Part shown: piece by piece, positions 12,309 to 63,900 of the stretch
Numbering within the stretch: position 1 is the first letter of the stretch
Layout: each line of letters starts with the position of its first letter
NCBI RefSeq assembly: GCF_014203395.1
Contig: NZ_JACHIW010000001.1
Span: 2,897,501 to 2,961,500, forward strand
Reading direction: 5' to 3'
DNA length: 64,000 nt
Source of the DNA: Saccharopolyspora phatthalungensis
GTDB lineage: Bacteria; Actinomycetota; Actinomycetes; Mycobacteriales; Pseudonocardiaceae
Position numbers and translations under genes: made by a program
Notes under the pieces: generated by a model
The model's database searches: none
Told to the model about the DNA's origin: nothing
The model's input: the letters and a program-made list of their open reading frames with translations, nothing else

Positions 12309-12458
12309 GGGAACCTTTCTGTCACCCCAGGCGCGCACGACCAGCAGCATGGGAACCTTCCTGTCACCCGTCACCGGCCTTGGGCTGCGGCGTGTGAGGA
12401 AGGGAACCTTCCTGTCATCACATGCGGGTGGGCAGGGAAGGACGGGAACCGTTCTATT
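12309..12458 (+). repeat. Dispersed 3' repeat array A (4 copies)
   Basis: Copies of GGGAACCTTCCTGTCAC or close variants lie at 12309, 12351, 12402 and (degenerate) 12443, spaced 42, 51 and 41 bp. Unit 3 is extended to AGGAAGG-GAA-CCTTCCT, a small hairpin. The array starts 58 nt past the stop of the hydrolase and lies between two convergent genes. No gene is visible in 12251-12701. Confidence 0.85.
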
Positions 12459-12483
12459 AGTTTTCTGAACGCGTCGAAAGTCG

Positions 12484-12529
12484 ATGCGGATGGCGTCCAG
12501 CAGATGAATCCATCTGATGGACACCGCAT
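12484..12529. terminator. Hairpin between convergent genes
   Basis: ATGCGG ... GTCCAGCAGATG pairs with CATCTGATGGAC ... CCGCAT around a short loop, with one mismatch. No T-run follows. It is a candidate terminator for the leftward ybaK-like gene or the rightward hydrolase operon. Confidence 0.5.
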
Positions 12530-12701
12530 TCAGCTGCACGTTCGGTCAAAGTGGCGTTCGCTTGCGAATCACGCGAAATGCCGATGCCTCCGGACACGAG
12601 GCCGCCCAGCCGCGTTCGGGTGTGGTTGTTGCGCCGCCGGCTTTGCCAGGTCGTGCGGATGGTCCAGGCCCGGCTCGTCGGAGGGCACTGCCCACGGGAA
12701 G

Positions 12702-13178
12702 TCAACCGGCGATATCGGCGACGCGTGCGTCGAGCAACCGAACCAGATCATCGGCAGCTAGCTCGATTTCCAGGCCACGGCGCCCGGCGCTGCAGTAGAT
12801 CGTGTCGAACCCAGTCGCCGACGTGTCGATCACCACGGGCAGGCGTTTCTTCTGGCCGAGCGGTGAGATGCCGCCAGCGACGTAGCCGGTGGCGCGTTCG
12901 GCGTCGGCGATCTCGGCCATCTTCGCCTTCTTCCCGCCGACGGCCGCGGCGAGCGCCTTGAGATCGAGTTGCCCGGTGACCGGGACCACGCCCACCGCGA
13001 GCTTGCCGTCGACCTCCGCGACCAACGTCTTGAAGACCCGCTGCGGAGGCTGGCCCAGCGCCTCGGCCGCTTCCAAACCGAACGAATCGGCACGTGGATC
13101 GTGCTCGTATGCATGCACCTGGTGTGGGATTCGTCGCTTGCTCAACAGCGCCGTCGCCGGCGTGCCCTTGCCTGCCAT
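12702..13178 (-). CDS. ybaK: YbaK/EbsC-type Cys-tRNA(Pro) deacylase
   Basis: The protein has 158 residues from the ATG giving MAGKGTPATALLSKRRI, the typical family start; the frame continues upstream without homology. It contains PQRVFKTLV, the GVVPVTGQLDLKALA segment, KMAEIADAERATGYVAGGISPLGQKKRLPVVID, and a C-terminal GLEIEL. The family hydrolyses mischarged Cys-tRNA(Pro). Its 3' end faces repeat array A. It diverges from the sigR promoter region. Confidence 0.92.
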   Translation of the reverse strand: MAGKGTPATALLSKRRIPHQVHAYEHDPRADSFGLEAAEALGQPPQRVFKTLVAEVDGKLAVGVVPVTGQLDLKALAAAVGGKKAKMAEIADAERATGYVAGGISPLGQKKRLPVVIDTSATGFDTIYCSAGRRGLEIELAADDLVRLLDARVADIAG

Positions 13179-13198
13179 GCGCGTCACTGTAGAAGGCC

Positions 13199-13225
13199 GG
13201 AATAACGCTTGACGCCGATTGCGTT
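13199..13225 (+). promoter_or_regulatory. SigR/SigH-type promoter upstream of sigR
   Basis: GGAATA is separated by 18 nt from GTT, matching the published actinobacterial SigR/SigH consensus GGAAY-N16-20-GTT. It lies about 180 nt upstream of the sigR start, as expected for autoregulated sigR. The transcription start itself cannot be seen. Confidence 0.7.
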
Positions 13226-13405
13226 GCACGGGGCGTGACGATGGACTCGACGAACACTTGCGTGCTGAACCGCCTCGCGCGTACACCGCTGTCACAACCG
13301 AGTATTAGCAGGCGAGCACGGGTATCCTCGAACACGGACCATGCAAAAGATCGCATGGGTTCGTCGCCTGCAGTCACCTCGTCCAGGCGGCGGGAAAGGA
13401 GCCCG

Positions 13406-14113
13406 GTGCCAAGCAGCACCCCAGAGCACCCGGACACGACCGGGCGGCCCGGCGACGCCCGGCGGCTCAGCACTGCCGATATCGAGTTGCCGGTCGGCTC
13501 GGCCGAAGTAGACCGCAGCGAGGAGACCGACGCGCAGCGCGCCACTCGCTTTGAGCGGGACGCGATGCCACTGCTGGACCAGCTCTACGGCGCGGCGCTG
13601 CGGATGACCCGCAACGCACAAGACGCCGAGGACCTGGTCCAGGAGACCTATCTCAAGGCCTTCTCCGCCTTCAAGTCGTTCGCGCAGGGCACGAACCTCA
13701 AGGCCTGGCTGTACCGGATTCTCACGAACACCTACATCAACGGTTACCGCAAGAGGCAGCGGCAGCCGCAGCAGCAGCCGACCGACGAGATCGCCGACTG
13801 GCAGCTCGCGCAGGCTGAGAACCACACCTCCAGTGGTCTGCGCTCGGCCGAGGTCGAAGCGCTGGACCGGCTGCCGGACACCGATGTGAAAGCCGCCCTC
13901 CAACAGTTGGCCGAAGAGTTCCGCATGGTCGTCTACCTCGCGGACGTGGAAGGCTTTGCCTACAAGGAGATCGCGGAGATCATGGGTACGCCCATCGGCA
14001 CTGTGATGTCCAGGCTGCACCGTGGTCGCCGGCAGCTGCGTGAGATGCTCACCGACGTCGCCCGTGATCGAGGCTTCTTGCGGGAGACCAAGCGGGAGGT
14101 GAGCACTTCATGA
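13406..14113 (+). CDS. sigR: ECF sigma factor SigR/SigH (thiol-oxidative stress)
   Basis: The protein has 235 residues from a GTG five bases after AAAGGAG; the frame is open further upstream. Region 2 ([22 protein letters not shown], about residues 65-90) and region 4 ([29 protein letters not shown], near 185-215) are clear. It directs thioredoxin, mycothiol and proteolysis genes upon disulfide stress. It overlaps the anti-sigma gene by ATGA and has its own SigR-type promoter. The gene order matches sigH-rshA of mycobacteria. An alternative GTG or ATG start upstream would give the longer unstable SigR' form described in Streptomyces. Confidence 0.95.
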
Positions 14114-14442
14114 GTTGCGGTGGGCCGGGAGAGGCCTCCTGCGAGGACGTGCTCGCCGAGGTGTGGCTGTTCCTGGACAACGAGTGCGACCAGCAGCGGC
14201 GGGCAGCCGTGCAACAGCACCTCGACGGTTGCGGGAGCTGTCTCGAACACTTCGGTATAGAAGAGCACATCAAGGCGCTGCTGCACCGCAAGTGCAGTGG
14301 TGAGCACGCGCCCACGGAGCTGAAGGATCGGCTCCGGGCCTCCATCCGCGAGGCTGTCCTGCGCAAGGCGGAGGTGACCGTCGAACGCGGCCCGGAAGGA
14401 ACCTCGGTCGAGGTGCGGGCCAAGCGAACCTCGGCGGAATGA
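14110..14442 (+). CDS. rsrA: Zinc anti-sigma factor RsrA/RshA
   Basis: This 110-residue protein of the ZAS family has Cys11 and the HLDGCGSC motif (His37, Cys41, Cys44), the zinc ligands that double as the redox switch. It holds SigR inactive until oxidation forms a disulfide and ejects zinc. It is translationally coupled to sigR through an ATGA overlap. A strong hairpin follows 13 nt after the stop. Confidence 0.95.
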
Positions 14443-14454
14443 CCATAAGACAAC

Positions 14455-14490
14455 GAATGGCCCCGGACCGCGTGGTCCGGGGCCATTCGA
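14455..14490. terminator. Terminator after sigR-rsrA
   Basis: A perfect 16-bp stem, CGAATGGCCCCGGACC and its complement, with a 4-nt loop. There is little T-run, a common actinobacterial form. It separates rsrA from the convergent bL37 gene and can act in both directions. Confidence 0.85.
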
Positions 14491-14516
14491 GCTTTCGACG
14501 GCTGGTGCCGCCGCGC

Positions 14517-14594
14517 TCACGAGCCGTTGGGGCGCTTGCCGTGGTTGGCCTTGTTCTTGCGCCGGTCCTTCTTCTTGCGGGCCCGCTTACCCAT
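14517..14594 (-). CDS. Ribosomal protein bL37 (tiny, basic)
   Basis: A 25-residue, very basic protein (MGKRARKKKDRRKNKANHGK then RPNGS) with GGGAGAGG just before the ATG. The C-terminal NHGKRPN matches the small actinobacterial large-subunit protein bL37 seen in mycobacterial ribosome structures. It stands in the conserved position between the anti-sigma gene and the biotinyl carrier. A longer frame upstream is not conserved-looking. Confidence 0.85.
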   Translation of the reverse strand: MGKRARKKKDRRKNKANHGKRPNGS

Positions 14595-14776
14595 GGCCTC
14601 TCCCTCAGGTTCGTCTGTCCAACCAGTCCGACCGTGGGCGGGCATTCGTGACCACCCGGTCTCCGCTGGGGTTTCGAGCATCCAGTCTGACATGGCCACC
14701 ACCTGCCACCGATGGGTGGTTCCGGTCGTGGTTTCCTAGTCAGGGGCCCACCGGGTCCGCGGTGAGGAGGAAAGCA

Positions 14777-14992
14777 ATGGCCGAGGAGATCCGCGCCGAG
14801 ATGGTCGCCAACGTGATGACGGTGTCGGTCGCGGAGGGCGACTCGGTCAGTGACGGCGACGCGCTGGTGCTGCTGGAGTCCATGAAGATGGAGATCCCGG
14901 TGCTCAGCGAGGTGGCCGGCACGGTCAGCACGGTGGCGGTCAGGCCCGGCGACGTGGTCCAGGAAGGCGATCTCATCGCGGTCGTGGAATGA
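14777..14992 (+). CDS. Small biotin/lipoyl attachment protein (TB7.3-like)
   Basis: The 71-residue protein consists of only a biotinyl domain, with LLESMKMEIPV around the biotinylated lysine (about residue 37) and a GDVVQEGDLIAVVE end. GAGGAGGA precedes the ATG. It corresponds in size, sequence and position to the biotinylated TB7.3 protein of M. tuberculosis. A role as a carboxylase carrier is possible, but the partner is unknown. Confidence 0.92.
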   Translation: MAEEIRAEMVANVMTVSVAEGDSVSDGDALVLLESMKMEIPVLSEVAGTVSTVAVRPGDVVQEGDLIAVVE

Positions 14993-15022
14993 CGCGACCG
15001 CGCCGACCCCGAGAGGCGGATC

Positions 15023-16516
15023 TTGTCCACGCTGAGTGATTTGCTCGCCGAGCACACCGGTCTGTCCGGCACCGCCGCCGACCACCTCCAACTCGTGGTC
15101 GCCGAGTGGCAGCTGCTGTCGGACCTGTCGTTCGCCGACTTTCTGCTCTGGGTGCCGATCGGCCCGCAGCACGCGCCGGATAGCCGCTTCCTGTGCGTGG
15201 CACAGGCGCGGCCCACCACGGCTCCCACGGCCCACCCGGAAGACGTGGTCGGCACCGAGGTCACCCAGGAGGAGCACCCGCAGTTGCGGCGCGCCGCCCT
15301 GGAGGGCCGGATCTGCCGCGAGGAGGACCCGCGCTGGCACCTGGGGGTTCCGGTGCGCCGCGAGACGATCCCCGTGCGGTTGGCCGATGAGATCGTCGCG
15401 GTGCTCAGCCGGGACACCAATCTGGCAGTGCCGCGGGTGCCGTCGCCGCTGGAGATCTCCTACCTGGGCAGCGCCGCCGACCTGTGCCAGATGGTCGCCG
15501 ACGGTTCCTTCCCGACTCCGGAGCCGGCCCCCGACGTGCACACCAGCCCGCGGGTCGGCGACGGTCTGATCCGCCTGGACAGCTCCGGCACGGTGGTGTT
15601 CGCCAGCCCGAACGCGTTGTCGGCTTATCACCGGATGGGCCACGCGGCGGACCTGGTCGGAGCGCAGCTAGCCCCGCTCACCCGGTCGTTGCTCAACGAT
15701 CCGTTCGACGCCGACGAAGTCGCGCAGCGCACCCGCAGGGCGGTGAGCGGGCAACCCAGCATGCGCATCGAGGCAGAGGCGCGCGGCGCTACTGTGCTGT
15801 TCCGGGCGCTGCCCCTGCGGCCGCGCGGACAGGCGGCCGGCGCGCTGGTGTTGGTGCGCGACGTCACCGAGGTCAAGCGCCGGGACCGCGCGCTGATGTC
15901 CAAGGACGCGACGATTCGCGAGATCCATCATCGCGTGAAGAACAACCTGCAGACGGTCGCGGCACTGCTGCGGCTGCAAGCGCGGCGCACCGGCAACAAC
16001 GAGGCTCGGCTCGCGTTGGACGAGTCAGTTCGGCGAGTGACGTCGATCGCGTTAGTGCACGAAACGCTGTCGATGTCGGTGGACGAACGGGTGGATCTCG
16101 ACGACGTGGTCGACCGCGTGATCCCGATGATGAGCGATGTCGCCGCGGCGGAGACCGGGGTGAAGGTGCGCCGCGAGGGACGTTTCGGGGTGGTCTCGGC
16201 CGAGCTGGCCACGCCGTTGGTGATGGTCCTGACCGAGTTGGTGCAGAACGCTTTCGAGCACGCTTTCCCGGAGGGGCAGGGCGGCGAAGTCGTGGTGCAG
16301 GCGGAGCGTTCGGCGCGTTGGCTGGACGTCGTCATTTCCGATGACGGTCGCGGCCTGCCGAAGGGTTTCTCCCTCGAACGCGCCGAACGTCTCGGCCTAC
16401 AGATCGTGCGGACCCTCGTGGAATCTGAGCTCCGAGGGTCGTTGAGCTTGCGCGGTCGCGGTCGGCAACCTGGTACCGAGGCGGTGTTGCGGGTGCCTCT
16501 GAAGTACCGGCGCTGA
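15023..16516 (+). CDS. pdtaS: PdtaS-type sensor histidine kinase
   Basis: The 497-residue soluble kinase is read from a TTG start giving MSTLSDLLAEHTGLSG. An N-terminal GAF-like domain (about 1-150) is followed by a PAS domain (about 180-280). The HisKA_2 dimerisation helix carries REIHHRVKNNLQTVAALLRL near 300, and the ATPase has TELVQNAFEHAF and DDGRGLP. Its partner in mycobacteria is the ANTAR-domain regulator PdtaR, which binds RNA; that gene is not in this window. It follows the carrier gene by about 30 nt, so the two are probably co-transcribed. Confidence 0.94.
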   Translation: MSTLSDLLAEHTGLSGTAADHLQLVVAEWQLLSDLSFADFLLWVPIGPQHAPDSRFLCVAQARPTTAPTAHPEDVVGTEVTQEEHPQLRRAALEGRICREEDPRWHLGVPVRRETIPVRLADEIVAVLSRDTNLAVPRVPSPLEISYLGSAADLCQMVADGSFPTPEPAPDVHTSPRVGDGLIRLDSSGTVVFASPNALSAYHRMGHAADLVGAQLAPLTRSLLNDPFDADEVAQRTRRAVSGQPSMRIEAEARGATVLFRALPLRPRGQAAGALVLVRDVTEVKRRDRALMSKDATIREIHHRVKNNLQTVAALLRLQARRTGNNEARLALDESVRRVTSIALVHETLSMSVDERVDLDDVVDRVIPMMSDVAAAETGVKVRREGRFGVVSAELATPLVMVLTELVQNAFEHAFPEGQGGEVVVQAERSARWLDVVISDDGRGLPKGFSLERAERLGLQIVRTLVESELRGSLSLRGRGRQPGTEAVLRVPLKYRR

Positions 16517-16736
16517 CGTCGGCCCGGTTGGTCGGGCGCCGCGCCAGTGCGTCGATCTCCGGTGACACGCCGGTCGGGGTGGCGTGTCGTGGCCGATCAG
16601 GTCGGGTTCCCGGCGGTCGTGAGCTCATCGAACGGAGAGCTTCTTTCCGGGGCCGACATCGACGCGGATCGGCCGGGGGTCTCGTTGGGGTTTGTTGAAT
16701 GGTCAGTGCGATGGCCGTTCGTTCGAACGGGGTGAA

Positions 16737-16779
16737 AACGTGCGGTCGGTCACCGGGGGTGCGACCGACCCGGCACGTT
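16737..16779. terminator. Terminator between pdtaS and whiB1
   Basis: AACGTGC-GGTCGGTC pairs with GACCGACC-CGGCACGTT around a 9-12 nt loop. It lies 19 nt past the whiB1 stop and can also end the convergent pdtaS transcript. The rest of 16517-16736 shows nothing I can name. Confidence 0.75.
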
Positions 16780-16797
16780 CTCGGCGAGCTTCGCTAC

Positions 16798-17052
16798 TCA
16801 GGCGTTCGTGCGGGCCCGGGTGCGAGCGTTGCGCCGCTTGAGCGCGCGCCGCTCGTCTTCGCTCATACCGCCCCATACGCCGGCGTCCTGCCCGCTCTCC
16901 AGTGCCCAGGCCAGGCACTCGGAGGCGACGGGACAACGGCGGCAAACGGCCTTCGCCTCGGCGATCTGCAGCACCGCAGGACCGCTGTTCCCAACGGGGA
17001 AGAACAGTTCCGGGTCCTCGTCACGGCAAACCGCACGGTGGCGCCAGTCCAT
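16798..17052 (-). CDS. whiB1: WhiB1 iron-sulfur transcription regulator
   Basis: The 84-residue Wbl protein has four cysteines, one near residue 9 and then CRRCPVASEC (about 37, 40, 46), that bind a [4Fe-4S] cluster. The turn DAGVWGGMSEDERRALKRR and a basic tail (NARTRARTNA) bind DNA. WhiB1 is essential in M. tuberculosis, NO-responsive, and binds the principal sigma factor. AGGAGTAAGGAACG precedes the ATG. The upstream region has two CRP-like sites. The position next to pdtaS matches mycobacteria. Confidence 0.95.
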   Translation of the reverse strand: MDWRHRAVCRDEDPELFFPVGNSGPAVLQIAEAKAVCRRCPVASECLAWALESGQDAGVWGGMSEDERRALKRRNARTRARTNA

Positions 17053-17111
17053 CGTTCCTTACTCCTCGCTAGGCGCGCCCACGCGCGCCGCTCGTTATCG
17101 TTCGGGGTGTT

Positions 17112-17156
17112 TGTGAATGCTTTCACGGAGTCCGTGTGCTTGTGAATGCTTTCACG
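17112..17156 (-). promoter_or_regulatory. Two CRP-like operators upstream of whiB1
   Basis: TGTGAATGCTTTCACG occurs twice, at 17112-17127 and 17141-17156, 29 bp apart. Each fits the CRP/Rv3676 consensus TGTGA-N6-TCACA except for the last base. They lie 60-105 bp upstream of the whiB1 start. In M. tuberculosis whiB1 is controlled by cAMP receptor protein through two sites, so the assignment is well supported by analogy. Confidence 0.75.
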
Positions 17157-17301
17157 AACTGCCGCGATGTCAAGACTTCGATCTCGCGTGGTGAGGGAAC
17201 TCACCTGAAAGATCGAAAGGACCTGACCAGGGGTTTCGGTATGCCATCGGTCGCAGATGGGGGTCGCGAGCCGACAACTACGTTCATCCGTTACTAGAAG
17301 G

Positions 17302-18228
17302 TTATACAGCGACGCGGACAGCGTCCGGAACGGAGAAGAACTCGATCTCCGAGCGCTCGCCCAGGCAGTCACCGTCGACCTGCAGGCGCAACGGCTCCGT
17401 ACAGGTTACGCGCAGATACCCCACGTCCGCACGCTGAATTGAGTTTCTCAGGTGTGGTTTCCCTCTACCGCGTAGCATCTCGGCTACATGTTGTAACACA
17501 GGGTAAACGCTCATCTTGTGCAACGCAAAGACGCCAAGGCCGGTATCGAAGCTGGTCTCGGGGCTCATGCGGACCGGTCGCGAGCCCAGATACGTCCATG
17601 GGTCGGTGTTCGAAACAAACACACTGTGTAGTCGCTCGATCGGTTCCTCGTGACCGATTCGCAAACTGATCAACGGTTCCCGGCGTGCCATGCGGAAGTA
17701 GCAGCTCAACGCGGTGCGCGCGTACAGGGCAGGGGTGACGTTCCGGCCGTGGGAGCGTTGCCGCTCAACCTCGGCCACGACGTCGGCGTCCCAACCAACG
17801 CCGGCGTTGAAGGTGAACCACCGGTCGTCGGCCTTGCCGAGCCCGACCCATCGGCCACTGCCGTCGGCCACGGCCCGCATCAGCCGGTGCGTGGCCTCGA
17901 CGGGATCCCTGGGCAAGCCGAGAGCTCGGGCGAACACGTTCGCCGAGCCGCCGGGTACCACGCCCAGCGTCGGCATCGTCCGATCGCCGAGTTCGGCGGC
18001 CGAGAACATGCCGTTGACCACCTCGTTCACCGTGCCGTCGCCGCCATGCGCGATCACCAGGTCAACGCCGTCCTCGACCGCCGCTCGGGCGGTGGCGGAG
18101 GCGTGGCCCCAGTACTGCGTTTCGACGACGTCCAGCTTCAGCTCGCTGGCCAGCGCGTGGGCGATCACGTCCCGGCCGGCCGCAGTAGTGGACGTCGCCT
18201 GAGGGTTGACGACGAGTACGGCGCGCAC
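17302..18228 (-). CDS. DagK/YegS-type lipid kinase
   Basis: The 308-residue protein starts at GTG, MRAVLVVNPQATSTTAAG. It has the nucleotide motif IAHGGDGTVNEVVNG near residue 60 and VVPGGSANVFARALG near 90, both diagnostic of the diacylglycerol kinase catalytic fold, plus the C-terminal beta-sandwich. It probably phosphorylates diacylglycerol or a related lipid at the membrane. The ribosome-binding site is weak, so the start is not certain. Confidence 0.9.
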   Translation of the reverse strand: MRAVLVVNPQATSTTAAGRDVIAHALASELKLDVVETQYWGHASATARAAVEDGVDLVIAHGGDGTVNEVVNGMFSAAELGDRTMPTLGVVPGGSANVFARALGLPRDPVEATHRLMRAVADGSGRWVGLGKADDRWFTFNAGVGWDADVVAEVERQRSHGRNVTPALYARTALSCYFRMARREPLISLRIGHEEPIERLHSVFVSNTDPWTYLGSRPVRMSPETSFDTGLGVFALHKMSVYPVLQHVAEMLRGRGKPHLRNSIQRADVGYLRVTCTEPLRLQVDGDCLGERSEIEFFSVPDAVRVAV

Positions 18229-18297
18229 ACCCGCAGCCTAGGCGAGGCCATTGCGAGCCTATGCACCGTCCGGCGTTCGGCGGCGTCGCGCCGCGGG

Positions 18298-18543
18298 TCA
18301 GCTCTCCCGGCAGGCCCCCTTCCGCAGCAGGCCGCACACCGACCGGCCGACGTGCCCGACCACGGTGGGGTCGGCAGGCTGAGACACCGGTAACGGGTGC
18401 GCCGTGCCGTTGACTACCACCAGGATCCGGTGGAAACCGGATGCGCAACCCCGGAGCGCATCCGATCGTCGTCCACCGGTACGTGCCGGGCGCACGGCGA
18501 ATCGCAAGGACACCCCGTCATCCGCGACCGCCGCTCCAGCCAT
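18298..18543 (-). CDS. Small unknown protein (81 aa)
   Basis: The reading frame from the ATG giving MAGAAVADDGVSLRF has actinomycete codon bias, strongest in its second half. It has cysteines near residues 35 and 73 and near the end (VCGLLRKGACRES), with no membrane segment. It diverges from the membrane protein at 18652 and lies in series after nothing obvious. I do not recognise it. A chance frame cannot be excluded. Confidence 0.45.
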   Translation of the reverse strand: MAGAAVADDGVSLRFAVRPARTGGRRSDALRGCASGFHRILVVVNGTAHPLPVSQPADPTVVGHVGRSVCGLLRKGACRES

Positions 18544-18651
18544 GATTCGATCATTGCGCGCGACCGTGGTCGCAGCCATGCGGCGTTCGGGCGGTATTAC
18601 CATCGAGGGCGCATACGCAGCGTCACCGAGTTGATTCCCGGAAAGGCCATA

Positions 18652-19089
18652 GTGACCGTGCCGACCGAAGTCGTCCCGCGCACCATCCGCATCGCGGGTG
18701 TCCTGACCACTCTGCAGGCGGTGGCCGGGCTGGTGTTCGTCGCGGCGCTGCTGATCCGCAGCACTGCCCCTGACCTCGGCGGAGTCGGGCAGTTCGAGCG
18801 CGGCCAGATGTTCGGCGAGGCCGGGTACTACACGCTGCTGGCGTCCGGGGTGCTGGCCACGGGCATCGGGCTGTGGAAGGGCAAGCACTGGGCACGCACC
18901 CCGGCCCTGCTGTTGCAACTGTTGCTGCTGGGTACCGCGTGGTACGCGTTCGGACCGTCTGGGCAGCCCGTGATCGCATTGATGATCGCAGTGCCCGCGA
19001 TCGCCGTGCTGTGGTTCCTGTTCAACCGCGAGGGGCGTGCCTGGGGGTTCCACTCGAGCACCGCCCCGGATGCCGACCGCGAGGAGTGA
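18652..19089 (+). CDS. Small membrane protein with four helices
   Basis: The protein has 145 residues from a GTG with GGAAAGG eight bases upstream; the frame is open further upstream but lacks protein character. Four hydrophobic spans are visible, near residues 10-33, 60-80, 87-106 and 112-131. The tail is GRAWGFHSSTAPDADREE. No catalytic motif is visible. It looks like one of the uncharacterised small integral membrane proteins common in actinomycetes. Confidence 0.75.
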   Translation: MTVPTEVVPRTIRIAGVLTTLQAVAGLVFVAALLIRSTAPDLGGVGQFERGQMFGEAGYYTLLASGVLATGIGLWKGKHWARTPALLLQLLLLGTAWYAFGPSGQPVIALMIAVPAIAVLWFLFNREGRAWGFHSSTAPDADREE

Positions 19090-19098
19090 ACCTGCGCG

Positions 19099-19566
19099 TC
19101 AGGTGCTGAAGGTGCGCAGCGCGTCGCCGGTGAGACGGTATGCGGTCCACTCGTCCATCGGTATCGCGCCGACCGCCTTGTAGAAGTTGATCGCGGGCTC
19201 GTTCCAGTTCAGCACCGACCATTCCAGCCGCGCGTAACCGCGTTCCACGCACGCCCTGGCCAGGGTCTGTAACAGCTCCTTGCCGAGCCCGCGGCCGCGG
19301 TGCCCGGGACGGACGTACAGGTCCTCAAGGTAGATGCCGTGCACGCCTTCCCAAGTTGAGAAGTTCAGGAACCACAACGATAAACCCACGACCGCACCGT
19401 CCACTTCGGCCACGTGGCCGAATAGCGCCGGTGCCGGACTGAAGAGCGCTTCGCGCAGCTGCTGCTCGGTCAGGTGGCACTGCTCCGGCGCCTTCTCGTA
19501 AAGCGCCAGCTCGTACACCAGCTCGACCATGGCGGGTATGTCGGCTTGGGTCGCCCGGCGGATCAT
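19099..19566 (-). CDS. GNAT N-acetyltransferase
   Basis: The protein has 155 residues from the ATG that follows GGAGG at a good distance (MIRRATQADIPAMVELVYEL). The acetyl-CoA motif is VRPGHRGRGLGKELLQTLA, preceded by GIYLEDLYV. The overall pattern (LALYEKAP, LNWNEPAINFYKAVGA, TAYRLTGDAL) is close to spermidine/diamine N-acetyltransferases. The substrate is not certain. It lies downstream of the histidine phosphatase on the same strand. Confidence 0.88.
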   Translation of the reverse strand: MIRRATQADIPAMVELVYELALYEKAPEQCHLTEQQLREALFSPAPALFGHVAEVDGAVVGLSLWFLNFSTWEGVHGIYLEDLYVRPGHRGRGLGKELLQTLARACVERGYARLEWSVLNWNEPAINFYKAVGAIPMDEWTAYRLTGDALRTFST

Positions 19567-19640
19567 CAACACCTCCACAAGAGTTGCATCGCCCAGAATA
19601 TTCGGCGACGAGCAACCCCCGACGCAGCGGTGCAACCGGG

Positions 19641-20237: not shown

Positions 20238-20447
20238 CGGTCGAGCGTAACCGCGCTGCGCAGGGGCTACCGCTTCACACACGACGGCCACCAGTGCGGG
20301 GTCCGCCTGCGCCTGCGATCCGTTGTGAAACGGCGGTAGCTCGTTCAAACTCGTGTGCCAACTGGGAGATACCCGGGACGACCACCATGTCGGGTCGAGC
20401 GAGTTCAGCGAAATCGCCAGTGCGCGGTCTGAACCGGACGTGCGTGG

Positions 20448-21587: not shown

Positions 21588-21619
21588 TGCTGATCCCTCG
21601 TTTCGTCGAAAGGGGCGCG

Positions 21620-22369: not shown

Positions 22370-22372
22370 GCC

Positions 22373-42320: not shown

Positions 42321-42466
42321 GTGACAGGAAGGTTCCCTTGCTGCGGTGTTGTGGGGTGGTGGGTGACAGGAAGGTTCCCTTGCTGCGGTGTGGTGGGGGT
42401 GGTGGGTGACAGGAAGGTTCCCTTGCTGCGGTGTTGCCGAGGCGTGGTGACAGGAAGGTTCCCTTG
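42321..42466 (-). repeat. Dispersed 3' repeat array B (4 copies, 42-bp period)
   Basis: GTGACAGGAAGGTTCCCTTG begins at 42321, 42363, 42406 and 42447. The first three units are nearly identical over the whole 42-bp period (the repeat plus CTGCGGTGT and G-rich filler), so this array is a true tandem repeat. It lies 96 nt after hutI between convergent genes. No gene is supported in 42225-42634. Confidence 0.92.
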
Positions 42467-46396: not shown

Positions 46397-46950
46397 GGGA
46401 ACCTTCCTGTCACCGACAGACGGGGCATTCGCGGTTGCGAGGATGGGAACCTTCCTGTCACCGCCAAGCCCGAACAGAGCCCTGTGGCCGGAGGATGGGA
46501 ACCTTCCTGTCATCCAAACCGGCCCTGACGGGTGCGGATGTGATCGAACGGTCTGATCAGGTATCGCTCGCCCGGCAACGTGCAACCGGATCGGCCGGGC
46601 GCCGCGCTTCGCCGCCTACTTCGACGTCGGCACGCAGCCGGGTGGTGAGCTACACGAAGTGGACGAACGAAGCCGTTCTCGCCAACAGCCCCCCAGAACC
46701 GGCGACCTCCAAGTAGCCTCCGCCGACTACGGCGAAACCCTACCCATCACCGGGCCTGGGCTGCCGGGGCAAGGGAACCTTCCCGCCACGGAGGCGCGTG
46801 ACGCGCGAAACCGGTGTGGCGGGAAGGGAACCTTCCTGACGTCGCCGAACCGCCGGCTACGGGGAAGGAGCATGGGAACCTTCCTGTCACCAGCCGATCG
46901 GCGCTCTCCGCTGCCGTGGCGGGGGCGAGCGGATGGGAACCTTTCTGTCG
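46397..46950 (+). repeat. Dispersed 3' repeat array C (7 copies)
   Basis: Copies of GGGAACCTTCCTGTCAC or variants begin at 46397, 46445, 46497, 46773, 46826, 46874 and 46935. Spacing is 48-61 bp within each group, with a 260-bp gap between the two groups. The second group has more variants (TCCCGCCAC, TCCTGACG, TTTCTGTCG). The 46203-46998 region, about 800 bases, holds no supported gene. Confidence 0.85.
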
Positions 46951-47175: not shown

Positions 47176-47284
47176 CGCGTCCTCCTAGTTTTTCCGTCCT
47201 TGACCGGTGCGATCGATGTCGGCAGAACAGCAGAGTACGAAACGCCACGTCGGTTGTGGCAGGGGAACCGTGCGTTGCTGGATG

Positions 47285-47414
47285 GCAGAAAGGTTCCCAT
47301 GCTCCTCGGACGCTCCCAGGCTGCCCGCCGGAGATCGGAGCCGAACTCTAATCCGCCGCCCCAGATCACTCCCAGCCGGGGAGCCTGACGTGTGGATGGG
47401 AACCTTCCTGTCAC
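47285..47414. repeat. Dispersed 3' repeat pair D (opposite orientations)
   Basis: One copy on the minus strand (GCAGAAAGGTTCCCATGC, 47285) and one on the plus strand (GGGAACCTTCCTGTCAC, 47398) lie between kgd and the DUF6104 gene. The second stands about 45 bp beyond the kgd terminator hairpin. Confidence 0.8.
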
Positions 47415-51619: not shown

Positions 51620-51744
51620 GTGACAGAAAGGTTCCCTTGCTTTCGCTCCGCCCCGGAGCGCCGGGCCATGGATGACAGAAAGGTTCCCTTCCTCACACCC
51701 AGACGCTTGCGTGAGCGGCGGGGATGACAGAAAGGTTCCCTTGC
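51620..51744 (-). repeat. Dispersed 3' repeat array E (3 copies)
   Basis: TGACAGAAAGGTTCCCTTGC-type copies begin at 51621, 51673 and 51725, each exactly 52 bp apart. The last ends 10 nt before the stop of the fused ABC transporter (minus strand), so the array sits in its 3' untranslated region. The kgd upstream region (51182-51619) shows no gene. Confidence 0.9.
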
Positions 51745-57519: not shown

Positions 57520-57597
57520 CTGTTCAGCCGTCGGTCCCCATCCTGCCGGACACGCACCGGTGCTCAGGTGCGGAGTCGTCGATTTCCCAGGTCGTTC

Positions 57598-57690
57598 TCA
57601 GCGGTATCGCGGCCGCAGCCAGCGGATCGACCGGTCGATCACGGATGCCGGGTAGATCTTGCCGCGATCGGTTTCGAAGTGGCGGCTCAT
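57598..57690 (-). CDS. Very small protein coupled to the upstream gene (30 aa)
   Basis: Thirty residues, MSRHFETDRGKIYPASVIDR then SIRWLRPRYR, with good codon bias. The ATG overlaps the stop of the upstream gene in an ATGA, a usual mark of coupled translation. It is basic and has no membrane segment. I do not recognise it. It may be a real microprotein or the remains of a longer C-terminal gene. Confidence 0.4.
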   Translation of the reverse strand: MSRHFETDRGKIYPASVIDRSIRWLRPRYR

Positions 57691-58148
57691 CGGCAGCGGG
57701 AGCCGCGACCCGGTGGCCAGATCGGGGCGAGCTCGTTGGTGTCCCCGTCGCTCGGCCCGGGACCGGTCGAGGGAACGATCTGCCCCGGCATGACGGCGAC
57801 GTACTTCGCCGTGTCCGCGATGCTGCGCCACAGCTTGCGGCGCACCGATTCGAGGCGCGGGCCGAGGGCGTGCGCGGGTTGCCCGGAATGGTCACCGAAG
57901 AGTTGCCTGTGCGCGGCCTCCCACACTGTGCACGGCCAAGGCCGACTACGCAGCGTGCCTGGACACGAGGGGCATCGGCCGTCCTCGTCTGGGAGGTGTT
58001 TGTCGAGTAGGGCGCGCAGGCCTTCGGTGAGCCGGTAAAGCTCGGAGCGTGCCAGCGGCAGCAGCACCTCTGGCGCGTCGTCTGCCGCAGCCAGGTCCAG
58101 CCTGTCGAGTCGATCGAGGACAGCTTGTCGCAGCGCCGGATCCGTCAC
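57687..58148 (-). CDS. Uncharacterised actinobacterial protein with CxxC element
   Basis: The protein has 153 residues from the GTG eight bases after GGGAG (MTDPALRQAVLDRLDRLDLA). The middle has RLTEGLRALLDKHLPDEDGR, then CPSC and PWPCTVWEAAHRQLFGDH, where two or three cysteines may bind metal. The C-terminal half is unremarkable. Homologues in related genomes are hypothetical. It is followed by the 30-residue frame. Confidence 0.7.
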   Translation of the reverse strand: MTDPALRQAVLDRLDRLDLAAADDAPEVLLPLARSELYRLTEGLRALLDKHLPDEDGRCPSCPGTLRSRPWPCTVWEAAHRQLFGDHSGQPAHALGPRLESVRRKLWRSIADTAKYVAVMPGQIVPSTGPGPSDGDTNELAPIWPPGRGSRCR

Positions 58149-58584
58149 GTCATCTCCCACCGTCGTCGAGCGTTTCGGGTTCGTCGGTTTTGTCGGCGGA
58201 GATTGCGGGGATACGAGCACCCCGCACTGACTCCAACGGGTGACATCGGCAGTCGGAGTGCACGCCTGCACGGGCATCTCCCGATGCTCACCCCATCGAG
58301 TGGTTATCGATTCGGCCTTAAATTGGCGGCAGTGCGACCGCTCGCGTCGTCGGCAAACGGGCGATCGTGTCCTACACTGACAGTGGCGGCCTGCTCCCGG
58401 TGACCCCCAGGCTGGTTGAGCGGGCCGCCCCGTTCGGCTGTTTGACGCTTTCACCTGTTCGGTGAATTGTGTCCGGTGCGTTCCCGGATTGCGTTTCTAG
58501 ATCATGCTGCGGACGCGCTTGCGTTCCCAAGTCAAGTCGACGCCCGCCCCCATCCGGCCCAGTGCGGCGCAAGTCGTTGCGAAC

Positions 58585-58624
58585 AAGGGAACCTTCCTGC
58601 CCCTTGTGACAGGAAGGTTCCCTT
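58585..58624. repeat. Dispersed 3' repeat pair F forming an inverted repeat
   Basis: AAGGGAACCTTCCTG (58585) and CAGGAAGGTTCCCTT (58610) form a perfect 15-bp inverted repeat with a 10-nt loop, 18 nt beyond the ald stop. It can act as a terminator, the clearest indication that the repeat family may have a role in RNA 3'-ends. The rest of 58149-58642 shows no gene. Confidence 0.85.
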
Positions 58625-58642
58625 GCTCGCGGTTGTCGGCGA

Positions 58643-59758
58643 TCAGTGCAGGACGCTGCTGATCGGGGTGCTGGTGAGTCCGTGTGCCTCGGCGACCGGC
58701 TCGTTGACCAGGTGGCCGTCGTGGGTGTTGAGGCCACCTGCGAGCGCGGCGTCCGTGCGGCAAGCCTGCTGCCACCCCTGGTCGGCGATGCGCAGCACGT
58801 ACGGCAACGTAACGTTGGTGAGGGCGTGCGTCGACGTGTTCGGGACCGCGCCCGGCATGTTCGCCACGCAGTAGAAGACCGAGTTGTGCACCTGGTAGGT
58901 CGGGTCGTCGTGCGTGGTCGGGCGAGAGTCGGCGAAGCAGCCACCCTGATCGATCGCGATGTCCACCAGCACGCTACCCGGCTTCATCTCCGAAACCAGG
59001 TGGTTGGACACCAGCTTCGGCGCCTTCGCGCCGGGGATCAGAACGGCACCGATGACCAGGTCGGCAGCCCGCACAGCCCGCTCGACGGAGTAGCGGTTGG
59101 ACGTCACAGTGCGGATCTGGCCGTGGAAGTCGCGGTCAATTTCGCGGAGCTTGTCGACGTTGGTGTCGAGCAGTTCGACATCGGCACCCATGCCCAGCGC
59201 AACGCGTGCGGCGTTGAGTCCGGCGACGCCACCGCCGATCACCACGACCCGCGCCGGGTGCACGCCGGGAACCCCACCGGGCAGCACGCCGCGCCCACCG
59301 CAGGGACGCATCAACGAGTAGGCGCCCACCTGCGGGGCGAGGCGCCCGGCGACCTCACTCATCGGCGCAAGCAGCGGCAGACTGCCGTTGGCCATCTGCA
59401 CCGTCTCGTATGCGATACCGGTGACCCCGGACTTCAACATCGCGTCGGTCAGCTCGGCCGAAGCGGCCAGGTGCAAGTAGGTGAACAACACCTGGTCCCG
59501 GCGCATGCGCGGGTATTCCTCGGCGATCGGTTCCTTGACCTTGAGGACCAGCTGGCCCTCCGCCCACACCTCCTCGGCGGTGGGCAGCACCTTCGCGCCA
59601 GCCGCGAGGTAGTCCTCGTCAGGGATCGAAGATCCCGCGCCGGCGTTCGTTTCGACGAAAACCTCGTGTCCACGGGAGGCCAGCTCATGCACACCAGCGG
59701 GTGTGATCGCGACCCGGTATTCGTTGTTCTTGATCTCGCGCGGCACTGCGATCTTCAC
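58643..59758 (-). CDS. ald: Alanine dehydrogenase
   Basis: The 371-residue protein begins MKIAVPREIKNNEYRVAITP, the canonical start. Pyruvate and ammonia are bound at RVAITPAGVHEL and VLKVKEPIAEEY; the NAD fold is VVVIGGGVAGLNAARVALGMGA; QGGCFADSRPTTHDDPTY and CVANMPGAVPNTST match Ald. It reversibly deaminates alanine to pyruvate. A palindrome lies about 100 bp upstream and a PucR regulator 420 bp upstream on the same strand. Confidence 0.97.
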   Translation of the reverse strand: MKIAVPREIKNNEYRVAITPAGVHELASRGHEVFVETNAGAGSSIPDEDYLAAGAKVLPTAEEVWAEGQLVLKVKEPIAEEYPRMRRDQVLFTYLHLAASAELTDAMLKSGVTGIAYETVQMANGSLPLLAPMSEVAGRLAPQVGAYSLMRPCGGRGVLPGGVPGVHPARVVVIGGGVAGLNAARVALGMGADVELLDTNVDKLREIDRDFHGQIRTVTSNRYSVERAVRAADLVIGAVLIPGAKAPKLVSNHLVSEMKPGSVLVDIAIDQGGCFADSRPTTHDDPTYQVHNSVFYCVANMPGAVPNTSTHALTNVTLPYVLRIADQGWQQACRTDAALAGGLNTHDGHLVNEPVAEAHGLTSTPISSVLH

Positions 59759-59849
59759 GGTGGCATGTCCTTTCGTTCCTGTTGCGCATAACGATCCGCC
59801 GCCACTGCCAAAGGCGCATCATTCCCGCCGAATGAGATTGCCCCGGCCG

Positions 59850-59870
59850 CATTGTGCTCGCAGCACAATG
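59850..59870. promoter_or_regulatory. Palindrome upstream of ald
   Basis: CATTGTGCT-CGC-AGCACAATG is a perfect inverted repeat of 9-bp arms, 92 bp upstream of the ald start and downstream of pucR. It could be the operator of the PucR or of an Lrp/AldR-type regulator. It might instead be a hairpin in the pucR transcript. The sequence does not decide. Confidence 0.5.
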
Positions 59871-59931
59871 CCCTCTGACGAGGCGAATCGAGGCAAAAAT
59901 GCGAGGCGAAACGCGCATCGGAGGTGCGGTC

Positions 59932-60176
59932 TGACAGGAAGGTTCCCTTCCTCCCATGCACCTCGGCCGCCCCCGCGACGGCAGGAACCCGCCCCGCAAA
60001 ACGTGAGAGGAAGGTTCCCTTCCACGCCGCACCGAGGAGTGTCCTTGCCCGGCGGTGACAGAAAGGTTCCCTTGCTCTGGGGCGTGTCCGCGCATCCGCG
60101 GTGACAGGAAGGTTCCCTTCAGCTGATCCGCTGTCGCGCGGCTCATCGCGGTGGGAGTGACAGAAAGGTTCCCTTG
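59932..60176 (-). repeat. Dispersed 3' repeat array G (5 copies)
   Basis: Copies begin at 59932, 60004 (TGAGAGG variant), 60056, 60102 and 60158, spaced 72, 52, 46 and 56 bp. The last one ends 4 nt before the stop of the pucR gene on the minus strand. The array lies in the pucR-ald intergenic space, which holds no gene. Confidence 0.9.
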
Positions 60177-60179
60177 CTC

Positions 60180-61733
60180 TCAGCCGTGCTGCGCCCAGCG
60201 GTCGGCCAGCAGTTGTACGAGCAGTGCTGAGCGGACATCGGGGTCTTCGAGGTCGATGTCGACGTGTTGGGCGAGCCGCTTCATCCGGTACCGGAAGGTG
60301 TTCGGATGCACGCGCAACTCCCGGCTCGCCTGTCGTGGATCGCCGGGATGGCGCAGCCAAGCGTGCAGGGTGGCCAGGTACTCCGTGCCCTGCATGCGGT
60401 CGTGTTCGCGCAGCATCGGCACCGGCCCGAGGGTGCCGATGCCGGCATCAGTCGCCGCCCCGGCCATCCGGCTGAGCACCAGCAGGTGCCAGTTGTCCTC
60501 GTACACCGCCACCCGATCCTGCAACTGGCCGGTGCGCAGCAGACTGATCAGCTCCTCGGCCTGCGATCGGGATTGCGGCAGTTCAGCGACCGCTACCGCG
60601 GTGCCTACCGCGATCAGCGGGCGTGGCGACACGTCGTGGGATATGAGCGCTTGCCGCAGATCCGGCCACCCGCCGGTGCGGGCCCGGTCGGGCACGAGTG
60701 CGTAAAGCATGGTGCCGATCTCGGTGACCAACGGGCGCCGTCCGATCCCACGTGTGATCCATTCCCACATCGCCAGCCGATGCCCCTCCGCTGGGCCTGC
60801 GGACGACGGCATTTCAATGGCCACGACCCGATGGGTCTCGCTGGGCACCGCTAACTCGTTGGCGGCAGCCCGCCATCCTTCACCGCCCTCCAGCAGCACT
60901 CGGACCTGCTCGGCGGATCGTCGTCGCTCCGCGTCTGCCACGGCCCGCCACCGCAGCAATTGCAGTGCGACCAGCGGCGCGGTATCGGCGAAGGCGGTGG
61001 AGCGTTCTTCCGAGACCTCACCGGGCACCACGGCCCACATCGAGCCGAGCAGTTCGCCGCCCATCCGGATCGGCACCACAAGCCGCGGCAACGTACCGTC
61101 CTGCTGGGCGGGCACGAAGATCGCCGAACTGCCCTTGCTGATCTGCCGGAACGTGCCGCGCGCCCGGAACTTGGCGAGCACATCGTCGGGCTGCTTGCGA
61201 CCCATGATCGTCGACACCCGCGCCGAATCGGTGAGGTCTTGCCGGGCCGAATACGCCAGGACCTGCGAATGCGCATCCTCGATCGTGACCGGCGCATCCA
61301 CCACGTCGGCCACCGCATCGGCGAGCCGGAACAAATCGCCCACCCCGCTGCTGCGCGTGTCTTCTTCGATGCCCGTTCCGGCCAGCGCGGCACGTATCAA
61401 CCAAACCAACTGCGCCCAAGCGGTACCGGGCCGAACCTCGACCAGGGCCACCCCGGCCCGCTCGGCTGCGGTGGCCACGGCGTCATCCGCGGCGATCGGC
61501 GGTTTCAGCAGCACCGCTGCGGCGCCCTGCGTACCGCAAACCCGCGTCAGCTCCACCGCTTTCTCGCGACCCGTGACGGCCACACCAAGGACGAGATCAC
61601 CGCCCGCCGCAGTCGGCGGCTGATCGGGCTCGGCGATGACGACATCCCCTACGCAGACGGTCGGGTCCGGGACGATCACGGCGCGCAGCAGCGTCGGCCC
61701 GACCCGCTCGACCAGCGCCCGGATCTCCAGCAT
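60180..61733 (-). CDS. PucR-family transcription regulator
   Basis: The protein has 517 residues from the ATG after AGGAGG (MLEIRALVERVGPTLLRAVI). The N-terminal PucR domain (about 1-135) is followed by a GGDEF-like sensor part (about 140-430, with degenerate catalytic residues) and the C-terminal helix-turn-helix RQASRELRVHPNTFRYRMKR then LAQHVDIDL. PucR proteins control purine and amino-acid catabolism; the position next to ald suggests alanine or nitrogen control. Confidence 0.9.
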   Translation of the reverse strand: MLEIRALVERVGPTLLRAVIVPDPTVCVGDVVIAEPDQPPTAAGGDLVLGVAVTGREKAVELTRVCGTQGAAAVLLKPPIAADDAVATAAERAGVALVEVRPGTAWAQLVWLIRAALAGTGIEEDTRSSGVGDLFRLADAVADVVDAPVTIEDAHSQVLAYSARQDLTDSARVSTIMGRKQPDDVLAKFRARGTFRQISKGSSAIFVPAQQDGTLPRLVVPIRMGGELLGSMWAVVPGEVSEERSTAFADTAPLVALQLLRWRAVADAERRRSAEQVRVLLEGGEGWRAAANELAVPSETHRVVAIEMPSSAGPAEGHRLAMWEWITRGIGRRPLVTEIGTMLYALVPDRARTGGWPDLRQALISHDVSPRPLIAVGTAVAVAELPQSRSQAEELISLLRTGQLQDRVAVYEDNWHLLVLSRMAGAATDAGIGTLGPVPMLREHDRMQGTEYLATLHAWLRHPGDPRQASRELRVHPNTFRYRMKRLAQHVDIDLEDPDVRSALLVQLLADRWAQHG

Positions 61734-61783
61734 CCCCGGCCTCCTGATATCGGGGGCCGCCACGGGTCGAAGGGGGAGGGCAT

Positions 61784-61810
61784 TGACACCAGGGCTGGCC
61801 CGTTTATCGT
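61784..61810 (+). promoter_or_regulatory. Promoter of the glycine riboswitch operon
   Basis: TTGACA at 61784 is followed, 15 nt later, by TATCGT at 61805, a fair vegetative promoter with a slightly short spacer. It lies about 40 bp upstream of the riboswitch and divergent from pucR. Confidence 0.4.
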
Positions 61811-61850
61811 TGCTGAGCACATCGACAATCGCATACCGGCCGTTGACCCC

Positions 61851-62045
61851 GTGCGGGAGAGACCCTGCGAGCTCGCGCCGAGCCGCCAGGGCGCCGAAGG
61901 AGCAAGACTCCCCACAAACTCTCAGGCATCCATGACCGTTCGGGCGAGGCAACTCTGGAAAGCGTGCGTCCTCGTTGACGCTCCACCCACGGTGCAAGCC
62001 GCGACAGCCACGGCGAAGCTCTCAGGTTCCGCAACAGAGGGGGAG
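61851..62045 (+). promoter_or_regulatory. Tandem glycine riboswitch (gcvT motif)
   Basis: Both aptamers are visible: GGGAGAGACC, GCGCCGAAGGAGCAA and CTCTCAGGC (61919) for the first, and GGCAACTCTGGAAAGC, GGTGCAAGCC and CTCTCAGGTTC (62019) with CAGAGGGGGAG for the second. Tandem aptamers bind glycine and usually turn on glycine-cleavage genes. The control lies 50 nt before the gcvH start, in line with activation of gcvH-sdaA when glycine is high. Confidence 0.93.
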
Positions 62046-62094
62046 GCCCAGCAACTGGCATGCCCGTGCCCCGACAGCGATGGAGCCTCCCGAG

Positions 62095-62466
62095 ATGTCT
62101 CTGCCTGCCCACCTGCGTTACACCGAAGAGCACGAGTGGCTTGAGGACCGCGACGAGCTGGTCCGGATCGGCATCACGCAACACGCCGCGCAAGCGCTCG
62201 GCGACATTGTCTATGTGCAACTGCCCGAGGCCGGCAAGCAGATCGAAGCCGGCCAGGCCTGCGGCGAACTCGAGTCCACCAAATCCGTCAGCGACCTGTT
62301 CGCGCCGGTGACGGGCGAGGTCGTGGCCATCAACGAGTCCGTCGTGGACGACCCGGCGCTGGTCAACGCCGACCCGTTCGGCGAGGGCTGGCTGCTCGAA
62401 GTGCGCGCCACCGCAACCGGTTCGCTGCTCACCGCCGAGCAGTACGCGGACCTGGTCGCGGAGTAG
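62095..62466 (+). CDS. gcvH: Glycine cleavage system H protein
   Basis: The 123-residue lipoyl carrier starts [15 protein letters not shown]. The lipoylated lysine is in [20 protein letters not shown] near residue 62. It passes the aminomethyl group between the P and T proteins of glycine cleavage, which are not in this window. It lies under a tandem glycine riboswitch and is followed by sdaA, 28 nt downstream. Confidence 0.95.
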
Positions 62467-62494
62467 CGGGGGCAGGCGAGGCAGGAGGCGATCA

Positions 62495-63850
62495 ATGGCG
62501 ATCAGTGTCTTCGACCTGTTCTCGGTGGGCATCGGGCCGTCCAGTTCGCACACCGTCGGCCCGATGCGCGCAGCGAAGCTGTTCGCGCAACGCCTGCACA
62601 GCGCGGGCCGGTTGCCGCAGGTCAAGAGGATCAAGGCGGAACTGTTCGGTTCGCTCGGGGCGACCGGGCACGGGCACGGCAGCCCGAAAGCGGTGTTGCT
62701 TGGTCTGGAGGGGCACAGTCCCGAGACCGTCGACCCGGCGGCCGTCGAGGACCGTGTGGTGGAGATCAAGCAGACCGGGCGGCTGCGCCTCGACGGGGTG
62801 CAGGAGATCCGGTTCACCGTGGACCGCGACCTGGTGATGCATCGGCGCAAGTCCCTGCCGTTGCACCCCAACGGGATGCGGTTCACCGCGACCGGCACCG
62901 ACGATGCCCCGCTGGAAAGTGCGGTGTTCTATTCGGTGGGCGGCGGCTTCGTCGTCGACGAGGGAGCCAGCGGAGCCGATCGGATCAAACCGGACGAGAC
63001 CGCGGTGCGCTACCCGTTCCGCACCGGTGCTGAACTGCTGACCCGAACCGCCGAGTCAGGGCTGCCGATCAGTGGTGTCATGTTGGCGAACGAGCTGTCG
63101 TGGCGCGACGAAGACGCCGTGCACAAGGAGCTGCTAGGCATTTGGCAGGTCATGCGGGAATGCGTGGATAACGGATGCCGCAAGTCCGGCGAACTGCCCG
63201 GCGGGCTCAAGGTACGGCGTCGGGCGGCGGAACTGGCCGCTTCGCTCACCGATCGGGACGACCCGTTGGAGTGGGTCACGCTCTTCGCACTCGCAGTGAA
63301 CGAGGAGAACGCGGCCGGTGGGCGGGTGGTGACCGCGCCGACGAACGGGGCGGCGGGGATCGTGCCCGCGGTACTGCACTACTACATGCGGTTCGTGCCC
63401 GGCGCTGACGACGCCGGTGTAGTGCGGTTCCTGCTCGCGGCGGGCGCGGTCGGTGTGCTGTTCAAGGAGAACGCGTCGATCTCTGGGGCCGAGGTTGGCT
63501 GTCAGGGCGAGGTCGGATCCGCGTGCTCAATGGCCGCCGCGGGGCTCGCCGAGGTGCTCGGCGGAACCCCGAGCCAGGTGGAGAACGCCGCGGAGATCGC
63601 GATGGAGCACAATCTCGGGCTCACCTGCGACCCGATCGGTGGTCTGGTGCAGATCCCGTGCATCGAGCGCAACGCGGTCGCGTCTGTGAAGGCGATCACG
63701 GCGGCGCGGATGGCACTGCGCGGCGACGGCACCCATTTCGTCTCGCTGGACAAGGTGATCAAGACGATGCGGGAGACCGGCCGGGACATGAAGGTCAAGT
63801 ACAAGGAGACGGCACGCGGCGGTCTGGCCGTCAACGTCATCGAATGCTGA
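62495..63850 (+). CDS. sdaA: L-serine ammonia-lyase, iron-sulfur type
   Basis: The 451-residue single-chain enzyme starts [20 protein letters not shown]. The iron-sulfur cysteines lie in [16 protein letters not shown] and [26 protein letters not shown] stands just before the ATG. It deaminates serine to pyruvate and ammonia. In the same operon as gcvH it lets glycine flow through serine to pyruvate. Confidence 0.96.
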
Positions 63851-63857
63851 CCACGCC

Positions 63858-63900
63858 GCGCGACCGGTGAGCATGGGAACTTTCCTGTCACCGGTCGCGC
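63858..63900 (+). terminator. Terminator hairpin of sdaA with a dispersed 3' repeat in its loop (copy H)
   Basis: GCGCGACCGGTGA and TCACCGGTCGCGC form a perfect 13-bp stem. The loop and 3' arm together contain GGGAACTTTCCTGTCAC (63875), a copy of the repeat family. A further degenerate copy (GGGGAACGTTCTTGC) is near 63919. The hairpin begins 8 nt after the sdaA stop. The window then ends without another gene. Confidence 0.8.

Follow-up and report, generated by a model that had tools for sequence, protein, structure and literature searches.

An intergenic repeat of about a hundred copies, confined to one stretch of 110–270 kb in the chromosome of Saccharopolyspora phatthalungensis and of related bacteria, probably marks that stretch for a putative DNA-binding protein. 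The repeat came to attention in the window, the whole stretch of 64,000 nucleotides analyzed here (contig NZ_JACHIW010000001.1, positions 2,897,501 to 2,961,500), and was followed through the window's own genome (G000; 8.54 Mb, 6 contigs) and through other genomes, which are designated by G numbers. With a probability of roughly one half, the repeats are double-stranded DNA sites of one putative protein that marks a block in the middle of a chromosome arm as a chromosomal domain. Observed directly are the sequence identity of the sites, their confinement, the sharing of the block by three genera, and the gene-end position, spacing and retention of the sites.

At up to three mismatches the motif GGGAACCTTCCTGTCAC has 27 matches on both strands of the window, compared to a mean of 0.08 and a maximum of 1 in 100 dinucleotide shuffles. 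An earlier reading of the letters alone (the sequence-only reading) had described a dispersed family of about 28 copies, all intergenic. The family is real, as the motif is present at every place listed; its copy number is 27 at this threshold, and the intergenic position holds nearly throughout, with 4 of 100 copies in the block falling into open reading frames of at least 60 amino acids in a simple gene call. The 16-bp core, GGGAAC[C/T]TT[C/T]CTGTCA, is nearly invariant and a left arm, TGnnAG[C/G]A[A/T]GG, is conserved as well. The whole site of about 24–27 bp is pseudo-palindromic (TGnnAG[C/G]A[A/T]GG GAA CCTTCCTGTCA[C]) and in G034 it is nearly a full palindrome (GTGACAGnAAGGGAACnTTCCTGTCAC).

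The copies are dispersed locally but not genome-wide, since all 63 exact matches to GGGAACCTTYCTGTCA in the 8.54-Mb genome lie within a single block of 202 kb (C1:2,909,809-3,111,997; reversed control 0), and at up to two mismatches 109 of 110 matches do so (reversed control 2). Matches to GGGAACNTTNCTGTCA in the block relative to the whole genome amount to 77/77 in G000, 110/112 in G014, 68/68 in G021, 43/44 in G034, 28/28 in G143 and 41/41 in G177, the sites spanning 202, 274, 190, 165, 110 and 117 kb, respectively, and loose matches number 47–116 per block. In addition, a looser pattern gave 0 matches in 17 sampled windows outside the block of G143 (340 kb) versus 87 inside it. The sites are confined to a single chromosomal domain, as expected of a macrodomain-specific site family. 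Ordinary terminators would not show such confinement to one block, which tells against them.

Which part of the chromosome carries the sites? It is an orthologous block common to three genera of one family, with kgd, rho and the ATP synthase genes within. Named by our reading of the translations, the genes run from near aroA/ybaK through kgd, argS, rho, prfA, the ATP synthase operon and murA to rnhA; the block is inverted in G034, and in G143 and G177 it has undergone internal rearrangement. The left edge falls at genes 18–22 in G000, G014, G021 and G034, about 7–11 kb from a 23S rRNA gene; in G006 sites begin only near gene 52, 45 kb from the 23S gene. The right edge is found at genes 193–205 in G000, G014 and G021 and at genes 196–197 in G034, while in G143 and G177 sites extend from gene 51 to about gene 157, plus one loose match in G177 beyond. 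From parS the block is separated by 0.87–1.07 Mb in G000, 1.14–1.42 Mb in G014 and 0.89–1.08 Mb in G021, and in G143 and G177, where contig position 1 is a dnaA-like gene, it is found at about 1.09–1.21 and 1.03–1.17 Mb. These measured distances place the block roughly 0.9–1.4 Mb away from the origin, and judging from chromosome length it would lie outside the terminus as well. Inside the block of G014 sits an island of about 59 genes (C2:3977320-4019205), most of them without counterparts in the G000 block, and this 42-kb stretch is free of strict or near-strict sites. Outside the block of G034, an inverted pair of sites (C1:4711759, L076) is nearly identical in its letters to the pair at 3869669; its core starts 13 nt after a gene that has no relative in five blocks and that we take to be PhoX-like.

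Saccharopolyspora bacteria make erythromycin and spinosyn, and it is in this genus that the repeat is chiefly found. A scan of named genomes gave at least 120 stretches; among the matches listed 118 belong to Saccharopolyspora (including S. spinosa, S. hirsuta, S. rosea and S. flava), and the other 2 are lone matches in Citrobacter. Exact copies are present in 20 of 22 Saccharopolyspora genomes and absent from G013 and G020. A sample of 249 genomes of the family contains 22 with matches, namely 16 of 17 Saccharopolyspora, 4 of 6 genomes of genus g68, G034 as the sole sampled member of genus g14, and G263 with a single copy; 42 of the 46 genera in this sample are without any match. Within g68 the strict motif occurs in G143, G161, G177 and G192 and not in G090 and G122.

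Comparison of sister genomes showed that positions are inherited, that copy number turns over and that the sites are nearly lost in G013. Among 113 comparable intervals, G000 and G014 share 23 occupied ones (1 occupied only in G000, 7 only in G014), G014 and G021 share 29 (1 only in G014, 0 only in G021), and G000 and G034 share 15 (9 only in G000, 10 only in G034). Fisher p-values for this occupancy assume an independence that shared descent breaks, and it is the retention that counts. Within alignable intervals, sites of G000 meet a near-identical core in G014 at 35 of 50 places, in G021 at 39 of 62, in G006 at 27 of 49, in G034 at 10 of 40 and in G013 at 1 of 22, and profiles for G006 and G014 reveal lower conservation in the adjacent bases than in the core. 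Most block genes checked are still present in G013 despite the near-total loss of sites. As its other intergenic DNA is about as similar to that of G000 (0.586) as is that of G021 (0.609) and yet the sites are gone, G013 suggests what happens without selection. Relics persist there, for example an inverted GGGAACCTCCCGG pair, and GGAGGTTCCC, which is close to the core, occurs in 5 intergenic intervals; G020 contains decayed forms of the site, some as inverted pairs. A variant motif of G013's own was considered and rejected, the best 10-mer being found in 6 intergenic intervals versus 4–5 in shuffles. Confinement is conserved in related species, as for a macrodomain-specific site family, and the sites are lost or decayed in G013 and G020.

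Inherited positions, together with decay of the family in G013 and G020, would also be consistent with a small palindromic mobile or selfish element, similar to repetitive extragenic palindromes (REPs) or miniature inverted-repeat transposable elements, that spread over a short range in an ancestor and was then kept or decayed where it stood. Moreover, many copies in G034 and G010 are arranged as paired palindromes, and some arrays are simple tandem duplications in which the flanks are identical. However, to our knowledge there is no element that keeps to one block in three genera, the base frequencies reveal neither a GTAG nor a CGTC tag, and, as the decay in G013 shows, copies not under selection disappear within a divergence over which others retain a core that hardly varies. 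The sequence-only reading had named descent from a known transposon as one of the things that would overturn it; one 56-nt palindrome pair, the copy searched, had no match in plasmid or phage collections. A mobile origin is unlikely, though of the alternatives it is the first to be reckoned with.

The clusters hug the 3′ ends of genes, as the sequence-only reading had proposed. Gene ends were taken from our own simple caller, which makes single distances approximate; the version used for orientation reached 81–88% coding coverage, and a less trained version served for the enrichment test, in which six of the seven genomes had 1 or 2 clusters that could not be assigned to an intergenic gap. Located no more than 60 nt from a gene 3′ end are 24 of 43 placed clusters in G000, 35 of 53 in G014, 30 of 45 in G021, 21 of 39 in G006, 12 of 30 in G034, 20 of 34 in G143 and 20 of 33 in G177; null means are 4.8–8.1, and in all seven blocks the observed number exceeds the largest of 500 random placements. 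That arrays begin 4–100 nt past a stop codon does not hold for all of them: two outside the window, of 11 and 7 copies, lie between divergent gene starts on the rnhA-like and the murA-like side, unlike most clusters. These two (C1:3111529-3111998, L068; 3044493-3044754, L065) are the largest arrays of G000, with a spacing of mostly 40–42 bp. Relative to transcription the orientation is random: single-strand clusters between co-directional genes are sense in 49 and antisense in 39 of 88 cases (p = 0.34), and a separate count for G143 and G177 combined gave 8 sense and 13 antisense. Along the contig, a test for a KOPS-like orientation bias gave 15/21, 19/30, 16/27, 9/18 and 5/11 single-strand clusters on the plus versus the minus strand (p = 0.41, 0.15, 0.13, 0.12 and 0.21), the counts leaning to minus in all five sets.

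In eukaryotes Reb1 and TTF-I act as roadblock terminators. It could be imagined that the sites similarly serve gene ends as terminators or insulators, through a bound protein that halts RNA polymerase coming from either side. The strong excess of clusters no more than 60 nt from gene 3′ ends, seen in all seven blocks, fits this idea, and random orientation would suit a symmetric block to polymerase. Roadblocks are nevertheless improbable, less likely still than a mobile element, because there is no evident reason why such terminators should be needed in one block only, and the arrays of 7 and 11 copies between divergent gene starts do not fit.

Could the repeats act as RNA hairpins, either intrinsic terminators or 3′ elements that stabilize mRNA? 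The sequence-only reading had named a 3′ untranslated or transcription-end element as one of its two options, and the structures it pointed out are real: an inverted pair (F, 58587-58622) and a copy within a stem (H, 63855-63900) fold with z scores of -6.7 and -5.7. Furthermore, in G034 the pairing of the arms is mostly kept, bar one position and one that is mainly G.T, and among direct arrays one of four in the window (z -2.9) and one of G143 (-2.95) fold better than most shuffles. However, the other three direct arrays of the window fold about like shuffles (+0.1, -0.2 and -1.2), the random strand relative to transcription does not agree with an RNA element, and confinement to one block would go unexplained. 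Pairing of the arms was counted in G000, G014, G021, G006 and G034. In the first four genomes, positions are conserved and yet mispaired (-6/12 G.G in 54–96%, -1/7 T.T in 49–77%, -3/9 C.C in 44–73%), meaning that the complementary stem of an intrinsic terminator is not found there, and conserved but mispaired arms favor double-stranded DNA over a hairpin. The RNA reading is very improbable. Hardly more credible, and if anything slightly less so, is that the sites are operators of a regulon with genes that are neighbors by chance: they are intergenic and sequence-specific, as operators would be, but favor 3′ ends over promoters, and the genes range over ATP synthase, rho and transporters.

Binding by a single protein, which the sequence-only reading had offered as its second option, fits 1) the near-invariant 16-bp core; 2) the random strand; 3) the conserved, non-complementary arms in Saccharopolyspora; and 4) the spacing in several genomes. 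Convergent neighbors up to 100 bp apart have a spacing of exactly 29 bp in 19 of 19 cases in G143, 16 of 16 in G177, 13 of 13 in G034 and 12 of 12 in one contig of G010, direct neighbors show this spacing in 18 of 33 cases in G143 and 8 of 17 in G177, and divergent neighbors within 100 bp number 2 in total over seven sets. We infer a single binding protein with a role in domain structure. It would bind the intergenic arrays, in some genomes with neighboring units centered every 29 bp, and may thereby hold, fold or tether the block of about 110–270 kb, by analogy to MatP on matS in the E. coli terminus; arrays may have come to lie at 3′ ends because that is where a bound array interferes least with promoters. 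Binding on one face of the helix is not claimed: direct repeats of the first genomes show phasing at 10.5 bp (R = 0.30, n = 126, p ~1e-5), but the best period is 11.9, and in the third genus (g68) the spacings are 29 and 58 bp. More tentatively, the block may be a dedicated lateral domain, neither origin nor terminus, with its own specificity factor and DNA code, kept for the age of three actinobacterial genera.

Several observations weigh against a domain-marking protein. The block is made up of ordinary core genes. One copy of G034 lies outside it, at 4.71 Mb, and 2 of the 112 matches of G014 were not placed. Mean identity over all copies is no higher in the motif than in other intergenic DNA (0.67/0.67 for G006, 0.68/0.68 for G014, 0.47/0.48 for G034), which is due to the turnover of copy number. 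The 29-bp rule is not general, as convergent neighbors in G000, G014 and G021 obey it in only 6 of 15 cases, with 31 and 32 bp also found, and direct arrays in Saccharopolyspora depart from it with spacings of mostly 40–43 and 51–56 bp. Since gene 5′ ends are only mildly depleted of clusters, the hugging of 3′ ends goes beyond mere avoidance of promoters. The strict motif is lacking in G013, G020 and two of six g68 genomes, and thus the sites are dispensable. Finally, no binding protein was found for the sites. The candidate sought was a gene with relatives in at least three of G034, G014, G021 and G006 but missing from both G013 and G020, the stretches compared being genes 12–153 in G013 and genes 12–94 and 153–210 in G020. 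Six genes of 12–153 have no match in G013 and none fits: G020 still has gene 47, G014 lacks gene 67, and G034 lacks genes 102 and 145–147. Among genes 153–205, those absent from G020 and present in G034 are 168, 169, 172, 177 and 186. The only regulator, the TetR-family gene 169, has no match in G020 but was rejected, since G013 keeps it and the site-bearing G010 (a 92%-complete assembly) has no match at E 1e-40; from their translations none of the other four looks DNA-binding, the G013 comparison ending before them. Hence no compared block gene (up to gene 153 for G013) occurs in every site-bearing block while being missing from both G013 and G020. The two species that have naturally lost the sites provide built-in controls for finding the binding protein, and the site-free g68 genomes G090 and G122 offer a second chance to find a lost one.

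Sites of the repeat in the window, by position in the window
Position	Strand	Sites	Context
12309..12417	+	3 sites	58 nt after + gene; isolated left-edge cluster of block
42322..42463	-	4 sites, 41-43 bp spacing	between 3′ end of + gene and 3′ end of - gene
46397..46512	+	3 sites, 48 and 52 bp spacing	between start of - gene and end of small - gene, presumably DUF6104-like
46773..46950	+	4 sites, three with 2-3 mismatches to 17-mer	
47283..47298	-	1 site, 3 mismatches to 17-mer	
47398..47413	+	1 site	96 nt from kgd 3′ end
51621..51740	-	3 sites, 52 bp spacing	13 nt from end of fused ABC gene
58587..58622	.	convergent pair, 29 bp center to center	+ copy with 2 mismatches; hairpin F
59932..60173	-	5 sites	array ends 6 nt from end of pucR-like gene
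63875..63890	+	1 site in stem	24 nt after + gene; copy H

At the gathering score Rfam has no match to the repeat, its matches in the window being rRNA and glycine riboswitch only. The riboswitch consists of tandem aptamers at 61844-62047, just 5′ of a gcvH-like gene (62095). A tandem duplication at 10106-11652 comprises two adjacent related genes beginning MCGRYA, presumably SRAP/YedK-like, and is kept in G014, G021, G034 and G013.

How does the repeat relate to known systems? A literature search found no printed description of it, two 16-letter forms of the motif had no occurrence, and no title among the matches to the motif letters was actinobacterial. Binding sites of ParB (parS) and plasmid centromeres such as sopC occur clustered or in iteron-like arrays, each unit of which contains an inverted repeat. 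The sites share this clustering, but chromosomal parS (GTTTCACGTGAAAC, near oriC) is another sequence located elsewhere, in G000 about 0.9 Mb away. REP elements with their RAYT transposases are likewise short palindromic repeats, many of them 3′ of genes, and are sorted by a GTAG or CGTC tag, having been reported there from phyla other than actinobacteria (PMC3733652); the present repeat differs in that it has neither tag at its end and is confined to one block. SlmA and Noc sites also show regional bias, and the SlmA site is palindromic, but they are located outside the terminus region and not in one small block (PMC3116907). In the accessible part of a paper on macro-regions of S. erythraea the word motif is absent (PMC3610266). 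MaoP resembles the proposed factor as a site-specific domain organizer, but its site maoS is a single 17-bp sequence near oriC in the Ori macrodomain of E. coli, and for the lateral macrodomains the same source reports that a similar search gave no domain-specific motif (PMC5441646). By analogy, the repeat family would work most like matS, of which 23 copies of 13 bp lie in the Ter macrodomain of E. coli and which was discovered in silico as a domain-specific motif (PMC3116907). Both are short palindromic sites scattered over one domain only, and some matS sites are intergenic (PMC3116907; PMC5441646). The repeat is nevertheless not matS itself: it departs from the matS consensus GTGACRNYGTCAC, the site is about 24–27 bp long, the 47–116 loose matches stand in many cases in arrays, and its position relative to parS or dnaA is in the middle of an arm instead of in the terminus. 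Factors that mark a defined part of the chromosome are known for origin and terminus, and a motif confined to the middle of an arm would offer a way into the question of what defines lateral domains.

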